A DNA stretch of 64,000 nt from Pseudomonas chlororaphis subsp. aurantiaca. Its GTDB lineage: Bacteria > Pseudomonadota > Gammaproteobacteria > Pseudomonadales > Pseudomonadaceae. Location: assembly GCF_013466605.1 (NCBI RefSeq), contig NZ_CP059162.1, positions 1,984,001-2,048,000 on the forward strand, written 5' to 3'. Shown here piece by piece: positions 4,923 to 55,231 of the stretch. A model generated the notes under the pieces. It was not told the origin of the DNA and ran no database searches. It saw only the letters and a program-made list of their open reading frames with translations. Both the position numbers and the translations under genes were made by a program. Position 1 is the stretch's first letter. Each line of letters starts with the position of its first letter.

Positions 4923-5651
4923 ATGTCGCTACGCATCTGCATTCTGGAAACCGACATCCTGCGTCCAGAATTGGTCGATCAATATCAGGGTTACGGACAG
5001 ATGTTTCAGCGCCTGTTTTCACAGCAGCCGATCGCTGCCGAATTTACCGTCTACAACGTGATGCAAGGCCACTACCCGAGCGACGACCAAAGCTTCGACG
5101 CTTACCTGGTCACGGGGAGCAAGGCCGACTCCTTCGGTACCGATCCCTGGATTCAAACTCTCAAGACTTACCTGCTGGAGCGTTATAAGCGCGGCGACAA
5201 ACTGCTGGGCGTCTGTTTTGGCCATCAGTTGCTGGCGTTGCTGCTGGGCGGCAAGAGCGAACGCGCGACCCAGGGCTGGGGCGTGGGCACCCACAACTAC
5301 AAGCTGGCGGCCAAGGCGCCGTGGATGAGCCCGGTGGTGGAAGAGCTGACACTGCTGATCAGCCACCAGGACCAGGTGACGGCCTTACCGGAAAACGCCA
5401 CGGTCATCGCTTCCAGCGATTTCTGCCCGTTCGCGGCCTATCACATCAATGACCAGGTGCTGTGCTTCCAGGGCCACCCGGAGTTCATCCACGACTATTC
5501 GCGGGCCTTGCTGGACCTGCGCCAGCAGCACCTGGGCGAGCAGGTCTATCAAAAGGGCATCGCCAGCCTGGACCGGGATCATCACGGCAGCACCGTTGCC
5601 GAGTGGATGATGCGTTTTGTGGCGCACAAGCCGCAGGCCGGATCGGTTTGA
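4923..5651 (+). CDS. Class I glutamine amidotransferase domain protein
   Basis: A 242-residue stand-alone class I glutamine amidotransferase (GMP-synthase-like GATase1). The nucleophile Cys lies in 'LLGVCFGHQLLALLLGG', and the catalytic His is in 'CFQGHPEF' with its partner Glu three residues on. I chose ATG 4923 (MSLRICILE), which begins the first beta-strand, over an upstream in-frame ATG at 4857 that adds a tail unlike the family. The synthetase partner is absent here, so the physiological substrate is unknown; relatives act on gamma-glutamyl or amine compounds. It sits 104 bp after the FadB-like gene, the same neighbour as PA1742-type genes. Confidence 0.8.
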   Translation: MSLRICILETDILRPELVDQYQGYGQMFQRLFSQQPIAAEFTVYNVMQGHYPSDDQSFDAYLVTGSKADSFGTDPWIQTLKTYLLERYKRGDKLLGVCFGHQLLALLLGGKSERATQGWGVGTHNYKLAAKAPWMSPVVEELTLLISHQDQVTALPENATVIASSDFCPFAAYHINDQVLCFQGHPEFIHDYSRALLDLRQQHLGEQVYQKGIASLDRDHHGSTVAEWMMRFVAHKPQAGSV

Positions 5652-5723: not shown

Positions 5724-5729
5724 CCGCTG

Positions 5730-6701
5730 TCAGAGCCATCCCGAGCGCTTGAAGCTCGCCCACAACCCGGTACAGCCCAGTACCAGGAACGCCAGCACGC
5801 CGAAGTAGCCGTAGTGCAGCTTCAGCTCGGGCATGTTGTCGAAGTTCATTCCGTAGATCCCGGCCACCGCGGTCGGGAACGCCAGGATCGCCGCCCAGGC
5901 GGCGAACTTGCGTTGCACCACGCTTTGTCGCGAGGCCTCCAGCAGCACGCCGATCTCGATGGTCTGGCTGGCGATGTCGCGCAGGGTCGCCAGGTCTTCC
6001 ATCTGCCGGGTGACGTGGATCTGCACGTCGCGAAAGTACGGGCGCATGTTCTTGTCGATAAAGGGGAAGCTGAGCTTCTGCAGTTCTTCGCTGATCTCCA
6101 CCATGGGCGCCACATAGCGGCGCAGGCGCAGCACATCGCGGCGCAGGCTGTGAAGGTGCTGGATATCCCGCTCGTTGAGCGAGCTGCACAACACGCTGTG
6201 CTCCAGCGCGTCGATCTCGGCATGGATCGCTTCGCTGACCGGCTGGTAGTTCTCGGTGACGAAATCCAGCAGCGCGTAGAGCACGAAGTCTTCGCCATGC
6301 TCGAGCAGCAACGGCCGTGCTTCGCAGCGTTGGCGGACGAATGCATAGGATTTGGAATGGCCGTTGCGGGCGGTGATGATGTAGCCGTTGCCGGCAAAGA
6401 TGTGGGTTTCGATGAACTCCAGCTTGCCGTTTTCGCGCACGGGGGAGTAGGTGACGATAAACAGCGCGTCGCCGAAGGTTTCGAGTTTCGGACGGCTGTG
6501 TTTTTCCAGAGCGTCCTCGATGGCCAGCTCGTGCAGGTTGAACTGGCGTTGCAGATTGGCCAGTTCCTGGGCGTTGGGTTCTTCGAGGCCGATCCAGACG
6601 AAGTGCCCGGGTTTGGCGGCCCAGGCTGCCCCTTCGTCGAGGGTGATATCAGTGACTTTTCTACCTGCGCTGTAGACAGCGGCGGCAACAACTCTACCCA
6701 T
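5730..6701 (-). CDS. corA: CorA-family magnesium/cobalt transporter
   Basis: A 323-residue CorA channel for Mg2+ (also Co2+ and Ni2+) in the inner membrane. A long cytoplasmic alpha/beta and coiled-helix domain occupies residues 1 to about 255. The signature 'YGMNFDNMPEL' follows the first C-terminal transmembrane helix, and a second helix ends in the basic tail 'SFKRSGWL'. The GMN motif is intact and the length is normal. It is monocistronic, convergent with the amidotransferase. No metal-sensing leader is obvious upstream. Confidence 0.93.
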   Translation of the reverse strand: MGRVVAAAVYSAGRKVTDITLDEGAAWAAKPGHFVWIGLEEPNAQELANLQRQFNLHELAIEDALEKHSRPKLETFGDALFIVTYSPVRENGKLEFIETHIFAGNGYIITARNGHSKSYAFVRQRCEARPLLLEHGEDFVLYALLDFVTENYQPVSEAIHAEIDALEHSVLCSSLNERDIQHLHSLRRDVLRLRRYVAPMVEISEELQKLSFPFIDKNMRPYFRDVQIHVTRQMEDLATLRDIASQTIEIGVLLEASRQSVVQRKFAAWAAILAFPTAVAGIYGMNFDNMPELKLHYGYFGVLAFLVLGCTGLWASFKRSGWL

Positions 6702-48559: not shown

Positions 48560-48645
48560 AAAAAAGGCGTCCCGCCAGTTGCCTGGCAGGACGCCTTTGT
48601 CCGGTCCCGTTCTCTCGGGAAAAACCCATCCTTCGTCGTTGAAGG
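48560..48645 (-). promoter_or_regulatory. nirB leader: ANTAR hairpins and attenuator terminator
   Basis: Read leftward. P1 TCCCG-AGAGAA-CGGGA (48620-48605) and P2 GGAC-AAAGGC-GTCC (48602-48589) both have six-base loops with A1 and G4, the signature of ANTAR-protein targets. The terminator stem (48595-48566, GGCGTCCTGCCA arm, followed by TTTTTTG) shares bases with the 3' side of P2, so P2 and terminator exclude each other. An extra A1/G4 hexaloop hairpin, CCTTC-AACGAC-GAAGG (48645-48630), lies upstream. NasT binding would let transcription enter nirB. Confidence 0.88.
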
Positions 48646-48675
48646 CCGGGTCGTATGTGCTGTTGGGAGAGTTGA

Positions 48676-48692
48676 TGCAGTGGTTGTGCCAA
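48676..48692 (-). promoter_or_regulatory. Sigma-54 promoter of the nirB operon
   Basis: Leftward TTGGCAC-aacca-CTGCA: GG (-24) and GC (-12) with exact 10-base spacing. Predicted start near 48665 includes all the leader hairpins. Confidence 0.85.
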
Positions 48693-48795
48693 GTTCCGCC
48701 GATCGCGGTTTTAGCGGGGCTGAAAGCCTGTCTCAGGCTCGGGAGGAGGGATTTTCTGCACCGATTCAAAGCGTCTTGCCCGTTTCTGGAGCAAC

Positions 48796-51921: not shown

Positions 51922-52006
51922 AAAAAAACGCCGCAACCCGTTTCGCGTGGGGCGAGAAGGGTGTGCGACGTCTTTGTCGTAGGTGGGGCAACCGCCGTTG
52001 GTTACC
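51922..52006 (-). promoter_or_regulatory. nasA leader: ANTAR hairpins and attenuator terminator
   Basis: Leftward P1 GGTAACC-AACGGC-GGTTGCC (52006-51987) and P2 CGAC-AAAGAC-GTCG (51979-51966), both hexaloops with A1 and G4. The terminator stem (ACGTCGCA-c-ACCC with GGGT-TGCGGCGT, then seven T; 51971-51922) uses the GTCG of P2, so the two forms are mutually exclusive. Same architecture as the nirB leader, with unrelated P1 stem sequence, which is covariation-type support. Confidence 0.9.
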
Positions 52007-52020
52007 TGTGTCGATTACAT

Positions 52021-52037
52021 AGCCAGATTTGTGCCAA
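52021..52037 (-). promoter_or_regulatory. Sigma-54 promoter of nasA
   Basis: Leftward TTGGCAC-aaatc-TGGCT, with GG and GC separated by exactly 10 bases. Predicted start near 52010 is about four bases before hairpin P1. Confidence 0.82.
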
Positions 52038-52155: not shown

Positions 52156-52731
52156 TCAGCCCAGCAACTCGCTCATGGCGATGATCTGCTCCGCCACCTG
52201 GATCAGCTTCTGCTGCCGGCTCATGGCCTGGCGGCGCATCAGGGTGTAGGCCTGTTCTTCGTTGCAGTCTTTCATCTTCATCAACAGGCCCTTGGCCAGC
52301 TCGATGCGCTTGCGCTCGGCCAGCTGCTGGTCGCGGGCCTGCAGCTGCGCGCGCAAGGCCTGGTCGCTCTCGAAGCGGGCCATGGCCACATCGAGAATGG
52401 GCTGCAGGCGCTGGGCCTGGATGCCTTCGACTATGTAGGCACTGACCCCGGACTTGATGGCGTGGCGCATCACATCGGGGTCGTGCTCGTCGGTGAACAT
52501 CACGATTGGCCGTGGCTGGTCGCGGCTGACCAGCACCACTTGCTCCATCACATCGCGGCTCGGTGATTCGGTATCGATCAGGATCACATCCGGACGCACC
52601 GTTTCGACGCGCGTCGGCAGGTCGATGGTCAGCCCCGACTCGTCGATCACCTCGAAACCGGCTTCCATCAGAGCCGCCTTGAGCCGACCGACCTTCTTGG
52701 CGGTGTCGTTGATCAGCAGGATACGCAACAT
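52156..52731 (-). CDS. nasT: NasT, ANTAR-domain antiterminator
   Basis: A 191-residue RNA-binding antiterminator. A receiver-like domain (about 1-120; 'VILIDTESPSRDVM') lacks part of the usual phospho-acceptor pattern. The C-terminal ANTAR domain (about 130-190) has the three-helix pattern 'RKRIELAKGLLMK ... EEQAYTLMRRQAM'. It binds the paired-hexaloop hairpins found before nirB, nasA and nasS. It follows nasS by 15 bp; NasS holds it inactive without nitrate or nitrite. Confidence 0.95.
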   Translation of the reverse strand: MLRILLINDTAKKVGRLKAALMEAGFEVIDESGLTIDLPTRVETVRPDVILIDTESPSRDVMEQVVLVSRDQPRPIVMFTDEHDPDVMRHAIKSGVSAYIVEGIQAQRLQPILDVAMARFESDQALRAQLQARDQQLAERKRIELAKGLLMKMKDCNEEQAYTLMRRQAMSRQQKLIQVAEQIIAMSELLG

Positions 52732-52746: not shown

Positions 52747-53958
52747 TCAGCGGCTGGCGAGAAGAGGCGAGCTGTCGCTCATGGCGTGCAGTTTGAAGCT
52801 GCGGGCATAGGCGGCCGGGTCCGACCCGTCCCACAGCTTGCCGTCGATCAACTGGCTGCTGCGCATGTCCTGGCCCCAGGACGCGACACCGACGGCGGTG
52901 GCGGCTTGACGATAGAGCTCGAGTTGCTGCACCTGGCGCGCGATGCCCAGGTAGTCCGGGTCTTCGCGCAGCAGGCCCCAGCGGCGGAACTGGGTCATGA
53001 ACCACATGCCGTCGGACAGATACGGCAGGTTGACCGTGCCTTCATTATGAAAGCGTAGCGCGTGCGGGTCCTGCCAGCGGTTGCCGAGGCCGTCGGCATA
53101 CTCGCCGAGCAGGCGCGGCTCGATGCAGCCCAACGGCGCATCGAGATACTCGCGGGCGCTCAGCAGCTGCGCGGTGCTCTGGCGGTTTTCCCGGCTCTGC
53201 TCGATGAAGCGGCTGGCCTCGAGGATCGCCATGACCAGGGCCCGCGCGGTATTCGGGTACTGCTCGACGAAGGCGCGGGTGCAGCCGAGGACTTTTTCCG
53301 GGTGGTCGGGCCAGATCGCCTGGCTGGTGGCCAGGGTAAAGCCCAGGTTCTGGTTCGCCGCGCTGGCGCTCCAGGGTTCGCCGACGCAAAAACCGTCGAT
53401 GCGCCCGGCCTGCAGGTGCGCGACCATTTGTGGCGGCGGCACCACCACGCTGTCGACGTCCTGCAACGGGTGGATACCCTGGGCGGCCAGCCAGTAATAC
53501 AACCACATGGCGTGGGTGCCGGTGGGAAAGGTCTGGGCGAAGGTCAGTCTTGCCCGGCTTTGGTGCACATGCAGGTAAAGCGCTTCAGGACTGGTCACGT
53601 TCAGCGCCTGCAGCTCCTGCGAGAGGTTGATGCTCTGGCCGTTCTGGTTCAGGCCCATCAGCACCGCCATGTCGCTGGCGTTGACCCCGCCGATGCCCAG
53701 GTGCACGGCGTAGATCAGGCCGTACAGGCTGTGGGCGGCATCCAGCTCGCCGCTCACCAGCTTGTCCCGCAGGTTGGCCCAGGACGCCTGGCGCTTGAGG
53801 TTCAGGGTCAGGCCGTAAGGCTGGGCGAAGCCCTGGGTGGCGGCGACCACCACCGAGGCGCAGTCGCTCAAGGCCATGAAACCGAGGTTGATCGCGGTCT
53901 TTTCCGGGGCGTCGCTGCCGTTGACCCAGGCCAGCGGGCTGACGGGGAGTTCATTCAT
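52747..53958 (-). CDS. nasS: NasS, nitrate/nitrite sensor (ABC substrate-binding fold)
   Basis: A 403-residue protein of the NrtA/NasS periplasmic-binding fold but without a signal peptide (MNELPVSPLAWVNGSDAPEK), so it is cytoplasmic. It is the known anti-activator of NasT that lets go when nitrate binds. Typical segments: 'FMALSDCASVVVAATQGF', 'HSLYGLIYAVHLGIGG' and 'IDGFCVGEPWSA'. GGAGG lies 10 bases before ATG 53958. Head of the nasST operon, with its own ANTAR leader. Confidence 0.94.
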   Translation of the reverse strand: MNELPVSPLAWVNGSDAPEKTAINLGFMALSDCASVVVAATQGFAQPYGLTLNLKRQASWANLRDKLVSGELDAAHSLYGLIYAVHLGIGGVNASDMAVLMGLNQNGQSINLSQELQALNVTSPEALYLHVHQSRARLTFAQTFPTGTHAMWLYYWLAAQGIHPLQDVDSVVVPPPQMVAHLQAGRIDGFCVGEPWSASAANQNLGFTLATSQAIWPDHPEKVLGCTRAFVEQYPNTARALVMAILEASRFIEQSRENRQSTAQLLSAREYLDAPLGCIEPRLLGEYADGLGNRWQDPHALRFHNEGTVNLPYLSDGMWFMTQFRRWGLLREDPDYLGIARQVQQLELYRQAATAVGVASWGQDMRSSQLIDGKLWDGSDPAAYARSFKLHAMSDSSPLLASR

Positions 53959-54001
53959 GGGGTGGCGTCCTCCATAAAAAGCGGCCATAAAAAGCTTCCA
54001 T

Positions 54002-54085
54002 AAAAAAACGTCGCACCCGCGCCAGGCAGAGCCGGCGGGGTAACGACGCCTTTGTCTTTCGACCCACGCCGCCATTGGCCTGGGT
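54002..54085 (-). promoter_or_regulatory. nasST leader: ANTAR hairpins and attenuator terminator
   Basis: Leftward P1 ACCCA-G-GCC-AATGGC-GGC-G-TGGGT (54085-54062), hexaloop with A1 and G4 and one internal G-G mismatch. P2 is GAC-AAAGGC-GTC (54056-54045), again A1/G4. The terminator (CGTCGTTACCCCGCC arm 54048-54034 with GGCGCGGGTGCGACG, then seven T; to 54002) overlaps the 3' side of P2. It has the same design as the nirB and nasA leaders, implying that NasT controls its own operon. Confidence 0.82.
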
Positions 54086-54167
54086 GCTGATGCAGGTTGT
54101 GGTGCAAGGCATATGCCATTCACCGCTGATTTCGCCGCGTGCCTCGCCTGCGAGCCCCATGCCCGGC

Positions 54168-54173
54168 TATAAT
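54168..54173 (+). promoter_or_regulatory. pyrD -10 box
   Basis: A perfect TATAAT 38 bases before the pyrD ATG; the -35 region is weak. Confidence 0.55.
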
Positions 54174-54211
54174 CGCCGCCTCATTTCGCCGCCACCGAGT
54201 CAAGCCCGCCC

Positions 54212-55231
54212 ATGTATACCCTGGCCCGCCAGCTATTGTTCAAACTCTCCCCGGAAACCTCCCACGATCTGTCCCTGGACCTGATCGGCGCGGGCGGGCG
54301 TTTGGGCCTCAATGGCTTGCTGTGCAAGGCGCCGGCGCAGATGCCGGTGAAGGTCATGGGCCTGGACTTCCCGAACCCGGTCGGCCTCGCGGCCGGCCTG
54401 GACAAGAACGGCGCGGCCATCGACGGCTTTGCCCAATTGGGTTTCGGTTTCGTCGAAATCGGCACCATCACCCCGCGCCCGCAGCCGGGCAACCCCAAGC
54501 CACGGATCTTCCGCCTGCCGGAAGCCGAAGCGATCATCAATCGTATGGGTTTCAACAACCTGGGCGTCGATCACCTGCTGGCCCGGGTGGCGGCGGCCAA
54601 GTACAAGGGCGTGCTGGGGATCAACATCGGCAAGAACTTCGACACCCCGGTCGAGCGCGCGGTGGATGACTACCTGATCTGCCTGGACAAGGTGTATGCC
54701 CACGCCAGCTACGTGACGGTCAACGTCAGCTCGCCCAACACCCCGGGCCTGCGCAGCTTGCAGTTCGGCGAGTCGCTCAAGCAACTGCTCAGTGCCCTCA
54801 GCCAGCGTCAGCAGGAATTGGCCGTGCAGCATGGCAAGCGGGTACCACTGGCGATCAAGATTGCCCCGGACATGACCGACGAAGAAACCGCCGAAGTGGC
54901 GCAAGCCCTGATCGAAACCGGGATGGACGCGGTCATCGCCACCAACACCACCCTGAGCCGTGTCGGTGTCGAAGGCATGGAGCATGGCGACGAGGCGGGC
55001 GGCCTGTCCGGCGCACCGGTGCGCGACAAGAGCACCCACACCGTGAAGGTGCTGGCGGGCGAGCTGGCCGGGCGTTTGCCGATCATCGCGGTGGGCGGTA
55101 TCACCGAAGGCAAGCATGCGGCGGAAAAGATCGCTGCTGGCGCCAGCCTGGTGCAGTTGTATTCGGGTTTCATCTACAAGGGCCCGGCGCTGATTCGCGA
55201 GTCGGTGGACGCGATCGCGGCGTTGCGTTGA
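54212..55231 (+). CDS. pyrD: Dihydroorotate dehydrogenase (quinone), class 2
   Basis: A 339-residue membrane-associated flavoenzyme of pyrimidine synthesis, passing electrons to ubiquinone. The N-terminal amphipathic helix '[19 protein letters not shown]' is the class 2 membrane and quinone site. Catalytic features: '[13 protein letters not shown]', '[14 protein letters not shown]' (catalytic Ser, about 176) and '[16 protein letters not shown]'. The order pyrD-rmf-rlmL matches other pseudomonads. Confidence 0.97.

Follow-up and report, generated by a model that had tools for sequence, protein, structure and literature searches.

A conserved ANTAR-type leader before nasS suggests that the NasS/NasT regulator probably controls its own production

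Sequence comparison supports a conserved, covarying ANTAR-type RNA leader in front of nasS, and the NasS/NasT regulator probably controls its own production through it. A NasT loop acting on nasST would be the best reading of the leader, the gene order and the single ANTAR protein taken together. We consider it quite likely that nasST lies under two serial gates, a sigma-54 promoter followed by a terminator that is opened by NasT. The parts of the leader, their conservation, the covariation of the first hairpin, the overlap of the second hairpin with the terminator and the finding of a single ANTAR protein were observed directly.

The leader before nasS and its candidate reader

We analyzed a window of 64,000 nucleotides from Pseudomonas chlororaphis subsp. 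aurantiaca (positions 1984001-2048000 of its contig), in which nasS (52747..53958, minus strand) and nasT (52156..52731, minus strand) are separated by a gap of 15 nt. Judged by homology, NasS (403 aa) is a nitrate-binding inhibitor and NasT (191 aa) an ANTAR antiterminator. Family profile comparison matched NasS to NMT1_2; in NasT, the ANTAR domain scored above the cut-off and the response-regulator receiver domain just under it (29.8 vs 30.2 bits). Among 80 named loci, the best match to the window NasS came from a Pseudomonas chlororaphis strain, with 95% identity, and nasT follows nasS in all 80 of the fetched loci. An ANTAR family search of the whole genome found one protein, NasT, which is thus the only evident reader of the leader. 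Were the leader to be read by an ANTAR protein encoded in this genome, that protein would be NasT, and the loop would follow.

The whole leader spans 54085-54002 on the minus strand. Its P1 hairpin (54062..54085, minus strand) has the form ACCCAGGCC-[AATGGC]-GGCGTGGGT with a single G-G mismatch in the arms, and the hexaloop AATGGC at 54076-54071 carries A at loop position 1 and G at position 4 (A1/G4). The P2 hairpin GAC-AAAGGC-GTC (54045..54056, minus strand) likewise bears a hexaloop with A1 and G4, and its 3' arm lies within the 5' arm of an intrinsic terminator (54002..54053, minus strand) with TTTTTTT at 54008-54002. The earlier note had likened this leader to those of nirB and nasA, with two A1/G4 hexaloops, P2 overlapping the terminator and seven T, and the sequence is as described there. 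In common with dual-hexaloop ANTAR leaders, it has P1 and P2 of at least three pairs with A1/G4 hexaloops, overlap of P2 with the terminator and limited P1-P2 spacing, and there is an ANTAR protein gene in the genome.

Folded alone, the leader formed P1 and the terminator, with P2 absent (z = -2.72; none of 200 shuffles was equally stable). A simple terminator scan found one terminator vs 0.4 expected, which is not significant alone. The P2 core GACAANGRCGTC occurs three times in the window, once each in the nasS, nasA and nirB leaders, vs 0.03 expected. Genome-wide it has 26 sites and the reversed control 58; because the word is this frequent, the evidential weight lies in the full architecture and not in the word alone. 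The nearest Rfam match to the nasS leader was narK (RF03032) with 34.3 bits, below the cut-off of 43.2, and P11 (RF00625) reached 17.8 bits, below its cut-off of 70.

Two leaders of the same layout lie elsewhere in the window, before nasA (51965..52035, minus strand; narK RF03032, 78.9 bits) and before nirB (48566..48703, minus strand; P11 RF00625, 117.9 bits). In the window, P11 (a small RNA gene by its Rfam type) and narK alike resemble ANTAR leaders, and they would fall into one NasT regulon. The promoter element of the nasA leader, TGGCAC-N5-TGGCT, departs from the usual -12 form.

A longer nasS starting at GTG 54123, which would make the leader coding, was tried and rejected, because the spacing between the sigma-54 element and the nasS start was spread over all three frames (30, 25 and 24 of 79 matching sequences). 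In the stretch that separates the terminator from the start of nasS (53964-54008, minus strand), TTTTTATGG is repeated three times in tandem; the close relative L001 matches the tandem only in part, and the triple copy may represent repeated U tracts or a slippage product.

Conservation, distribution and loss of the leader

We compared the upstream regions of the 80 named nasS loci and the window (81 sequences). A pattern filter consisting of a sigma-54 element, the P2 word and a later T run was passed by 60. Two more, L014 and L042, which missed the filter solely at the P2 pattern, had model scores of 44.3 and 42.3 bits, which brought the leaders to 62; by eye, three further sequences (L035, L043, L053) were degraded or interrupted and 16 had no leader. 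P1 was poor in L065 (20.2 bits) and L080 (14.8 bits), and L067 had no model match at the nasS leader; these three were counted as leaders on P2 and the terminator alone.

The first alignment (set A1) held 52 of the 60 filter-passing rows, near copies having been removed. In P1, 81.1% of the cells were paired, and double changes were present in eight of the nine pairs, with 88 double-change cells compared with 34.6 in shuffled alignments and 7-16 when the helix was slid. Position 1 of the P1 loop was A in 51 and position 4 was G in 50 of the 52 rows, while positions 3 and 5 varied. The P1 loop lay outside the filter, so that these letters were not forced by selection; those of the P2 loop were partly fixed by it. 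In P2, the three core pairs were invariant and the outer three paired poorly. Its covariation score over the 52 rows, 0.024, was lower than that of some slid versions (up to 0.140), and P2 therefore rests on conservation and precedent.

The base helix of the terminator was 87.0% paired in set A1, and the inner helices fitted only 44-55% of the cells. The whole terminator hairpin had 91 double-change cells vs 54.9 shuffled and 25-52 slid. The 3' arm of P2 spans three columns, each also complementary to the terminator 3' arm (52, 52 and 51 of the 52 rows), and minimum free energy folds placed this shared arm in the terminator in 50 rows and in P2 in two. From the P1 helix to the GAC of P2 there were 5 nt in 34 of the 52 rows, 1-8 nt in 49, and 17-20 nt in three. 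The P1-P2 linkers of L010, L013 and L017 are 12-15 nt above the usual 5. In the EutV system, a 20-nt extension of the linker abolished antitermination, according to the sections consulted of PMC8934654.

From 49 of the 52 rows (L065, L067 and L080 dropped, the window row included) we built a covariance model of P1 and P2, named R1. It gave 62.4 bits on the nasS leader of the window, 14.5 bits on the nirB leader and 12.3 bits on the nasA leader. In the window's own genome, one further match was found at E ≤1 (20.5 bits, E 0.946) with 150 of 6541 first-look candidates scored; it sits within an open reading frame of 872 aa and was set aside.

In the family, 240 of 298 genomes had a NasS-like match at E ≤1e-60, transport paralogues possibly among them. 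From these genomes 80 further upstream stretches were picked non-randomly, to spread over genera, and R1 matched 56 of them at E ≤1. Two of the matched stretches, L152 and L155, precede proteins with a Tat signal, which suggests transport genes rather than nasS; they were the only two such cases recognized among the 80, of which 75 were read for a signal. L137 was a weak match (E 0.4). Leaving out L152, L155 and L137, the R1 leader was present in 53 of 78 further stretches. Some of these repeat named loci (L090 is L080, L102 is L077 and L161 is L072), and L098 is a near copy of L072. By genus code, counted before the three were removed, the matches were 13/20 in g1, 2/2 in g4, 6/7 in g5, 3/8 in g6, 14/18 in g9, 3/3 in g10, 9/9 in g12, 0/6 in g15, 2/2 in g16, 4/4 in g17 and 0/1 in g19. 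Without g16, the leader occurs in eight genus codes of the family.

A second alignment (set A3) held the 52 rows with R1 matches at E ≤0.1, L152, L155 and L161 being left out; its rows were found with and fitted to R1 and partly overlap set A1, so that it is not fully independent. Here P1 had 95 double-change cells vs 32.1 shuffled and 18-26 slid. The P1 hexaloop was present in 47 of the 52 rows, of which 46 had A1 and 46 had G4, and seven rows departed from an A1/G4 hexaloop in P1. In the P2 loop, A1 was found in 51 and G4 in 52 of the 52 rows. The earlier note had proposed a covariance comparison of orthologous nasS leaders and named loss of the A1/G4 loops as grounds for giving up its reading; in the event P1 covaried in both alignments, and its loop letters were kept.

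Across the class, R1 matched six of 274 genomes under stricter filters by which weak matches were lost, and two of the six belong to Pseudomonadaceae. Outside the family, L181 and L182 lie before nasA-type transporter genes, L185 before a NasS-like protein with a Tat signal, and L186 before an unidentified gene beside nasT; L184 is accompanied by no identified nas gene. The 28 NasS-like class loci L188-L215 had a P2-like word upstream in 12 cases, of which ten showed by eye a Tat-like N-terminus, as of a transport protein, and L204 and L213 were unclear. Given these matches elsewhere in the class, we refrain from calling the nasS leader specific to the family. In other families of the class, R1 leaders at L185/L197, L191, L198 and L203 likewise precede genes next to nasT whose NasS-like products begin with a Tat-like sequence.

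The 16 leaderless sequences comprise eight putida-type and five Stutzerimonas-type loci, together with L028, L050 and L060 singly, and the putida-type and the Stutzerimonas-type loci each form one starred group on the NasS tree. On this quick tree the leader pattern needs eight changes, five of which the starred branches make unavoidable for the leader group, compared with about 17 for shuffled patterns; the tree is unrooted, 26 of its 78 inner branches are weak, and counts do not separate gain from loss. We read the changes as losses because the leader, with shared detail, is found in eight genus codes. The nasA leader (narK) scored over its cut-off in all 11 leaderless loci tested (11 of the 16). 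In 11 leader-bearing loci Rfam called narK in nine and P11 in six, and it made no call at its cut-off on the nasS leader in the window or in any of the 11. The nasS leader is thus a widespread RNA element that Rfam leaves uncalled in the window and the 11 leader-bearing loci tested.

We lean slightly to the view that a nitrogen-gated positive loop with a co-made inhibitor is ancestral in much of Pseudomonadaceae, the sensor-antiterminator pair amplifying itself by the type of RNA switch and promoter that its targets have, and that it was lost repeatedly (in putida, Stutzerimonas and others) while the leaders of the target genes stayed. If so, sister species would offer a natural comparison, with and without the loop, of memory or switch-like nitrate induction.

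Single loci show how individual leaders differ. Upstream of nasS in L053 (about 5727-6000), P1 and P2 score 52.8 bits, and by eye about 100 nt separate P2 from the 3' arm of the terminator, which makes the switch look interrupted. C4 antisense RNA is known from P4-type prophages. L028, in which the leader is missing, has a C4 antisense RNA with its a1/b1 target (4924-5111, minus strand) about 1 kb before nasS; PyrD was not found at this locus, and the leader may have been lost with a prophage event. In L043, the P2 sequence is CAC-ATAGGC-GTG, with both sides of the stem swapped, and the T run is short by eye; the terminator 3' arm seems, also by eye, to follow the swap in a shifted register.

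Sigma-54 promoter layer and proposed mechanism

Sigma-54 promoters have GG and GC elements at -24 and -12 with the correct spacing. The element TGGCAT-ATGCC-TTGCA upstream of nasS (54103..54118, minus strand) has this GG/GC spacing, and its predicted start, at about 54092, lies about 7 nt before P1. A well-placed sigma-54 promoter had been called not evident before nasS in the earlier note; this has to be corrected, since TGGCAT-N5-TTGCA stands at 54118-54103 and the pattern [TC]GGCA[CT]-N5-[TC]TGC[AT] was found within 330 nt upstream of nasS in 80 of the 81 sequences, L050 being the one without it. A transcription start downstream of P1, which would have spoken against the leader, is not what the sequence predicts, the predicted start being upstream of P1.

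We estimate the chance of one pattern match in 330 nt at about 0.001 from base frequencies, the sequences being related and not independent trials. In the window the sigma-54 pattern has two matches, at the nasS and nirB leaders, vs 0.58 expected, and at least two were seen in 10 of 100 shuffles. Among the further 80 stretches, 65 had the pattern in their last 330 nt and 15 did not. Six leader-bearing stretches (L105, L106, L148, L149, L151, L167) are without the strict pattern, suggesting that the element has diverged or sits at another position in some members of g5 and g17. The -12 C and P1 were 16-19 nt apart in 51 of the 52 rows of set A1 and 11 nt apart in one; the invariance of the sigma-54 core in this set is discounted because the rows were picked with that pattern. 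The putida and Stutzerimonas loci, though leaderless, retain the element 50-110 nt ahead of the start codon.

No sigma-70 promoter was found in 53900-54260. The NtrC palindrome, searched for as the simple pattern GCACY-N3-7-RGTGC, had no match in 80 sequences searched up to 250 nt from the element, and an alignment of 32 sequences upstream of the element showed patchy conservation and no clear site. In a P. stutzeri ntrC mutant, nasS and nasT were strongly down (PMC8443478), nasST is listed among sigma-54-affected genes in a review (PMC8657755), and such promoters are predicted for NasT-group genes in a study of the sigma-54 regulon (PMC12316311), each as given in the consulted portion of the source. 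With these published ntrC and sigma-54 data, the promoter layer of nasST is already known in part.

In the mechanism that we propose, a shortage of good nitrogen would cause the sigma-54 promoter, probably activated by NtrC, to start transcription of nasST. The leader would fold P1, and the terminator would halt RNA polymerase before nasS unless P2 were held open. When nitrate or nitrite is present, NasS would release NasT, and the freed NasT would bind the P1 and P2 hexaloops and block the terminator, allowing nasS and nasT to be transcribed. NasT would thereby raise its own level and that of its inhibitor NasS jointly, and because the two rise jointly, the loop would close only while nitrate is present. 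Without nitrate, NasS would hold NasT and the loop would drop to its leak level; with nitrate, a small NasT pool would open nasST, nasA and nirB together. Here we infer the transcription start, NtrC as the activator, the binding of NasT, and the sign and size of the feedback. How widely the claim applies is limited by the overlap of the two alignment sets, the three leaders with a poor P1 and the stretches lacking the strict promoter pattern; the reading of the window is unaffected.

Three other explanations were weighed. The leader could be a fixed attenuator, which only holds nasST low under sigma-54 and gives no answer to NasT. A strong terminator is indeed predicted, and since the leaderless putida and Stutzerimonas loci retain the sigma-54 element, a modest lowering of output could be all that the leader does. 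Against this, P1 would be superfluous to a plain terminator, whereas it covaries and has A1 in 51 and G4 in 50 of 52 rows even as loop positions 3 and 5 change, and we regard this explanation as unlikely. We give still less credit to the idea that the terminated leader, an RNA of about 90 nt, soaks up NasT and damps the response as EutX does for EutV. The sequestration of EutV by EutX has been described (PMC8934654, in the part consulted), and terminated products bearing P1 would be expected each time the promoter fires; however, 50 of the 52 predicted folds place the P2 arm in the terminator, which leaves one hexaloop in the released RNA, and the leader is tied to nasS, not free-standing.

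It is very improbable that the nasS leader is a recent copy of the nasA leader, a local quirk without function. The nasA leader is alike and lies only about 2 kb off, but the nasS leader is spread over eight genus codes of the family and is distinct in sequence style, R1 giving it 62.4 bits in the window compared with 12.3 for the nasA and 14.5 for the nirB leader. If the reading with a sigma-54 promoter and a NasT-opened terminator is true, the dose of the NasST sensor would depend on nitrate, which would alter how nitrate assimilation is modelled for soil-dwelling and plant-associated pseudomonads. NasT work has been done in P. putida, as reported in the consulted part of a review (PMC12830290), and because the eight putida-group loci have no leader, P. 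putida results on NasT may not carry over to fluorescens-type species.

Comparison with known systems

The NalA leader of nirBD in Pseudomonas, which we take to be Rfam P11 (RF00625), is like the nasS leader in its sigma-54 element, its two A1/G4 hexaloops and its P2-terminator overlap. It differs in that it controls structural genes, and in its longer P1-P2 linker with a possible extra hairpin, seen by eye in the nirB leader of the window. The nasA leader (narK, RF03032) has the same layout and probably the same reader as the nasS leader and precedes a nitrate transporter gene.

Much of this is already in print, as far as the consulted portions of the sources go, namely the ANTAR mechanism, the NasS-NasT pair and the nasA and nirBD leaders read by NasT (PMC3369936, PMC3795266, PMC12830290). 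For the EutV leader, A1 and G4 have been found important in each loop (PMC3369936), and NasT acts on the nirBD leader NalA (review PMC12830290). In Paracoccus, nitrate dissociates NasS-NasT, and NasT binds the nasA leader (PMC3795266). The NasTS system of Paracoccus denitrificans likewise has a NasS-NasT pair, a nasA leader read by NasT and an NtrC site before the regulator operon (PMC5424462, PMC3795266); it differs in the gene order nasTS, and ANTAR hairpins before the regulator genes are not mentioned in the sections consulted of PMC5424462. The dual-hexaloop substrates of Ramesh et al. 2012 (PMC3369931) have P1, P2, A1/G4 and the terminator overlap as in the nasS leader, and their targets include nitrate and nitrite transporters and nitrite reductase; nasS and nasT are absent from the main text of that paper. 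In the literature searched, whose coverage was partial, we found no description of the nasS leader or of NasT autoregulation, and we do not claim that the leader is unpublished.

The ami operon of P. aeruginosa similarly pairs a ligand-binding inhibitor, AmiC, with an ANTAR protein, AmiR, which acts at the amiE leader (PMC5259723, PMC3369936, consulted in part). AmiR permits transcription of the operon that includes amiC and amiR (PMC5259723), and the ami operon is thus, in principle, already a self-controlling ANTAR loop. The ami regulators share the operon of the enzyme, whereas nasST is a regulator operon with its own leader, apart from its targets.
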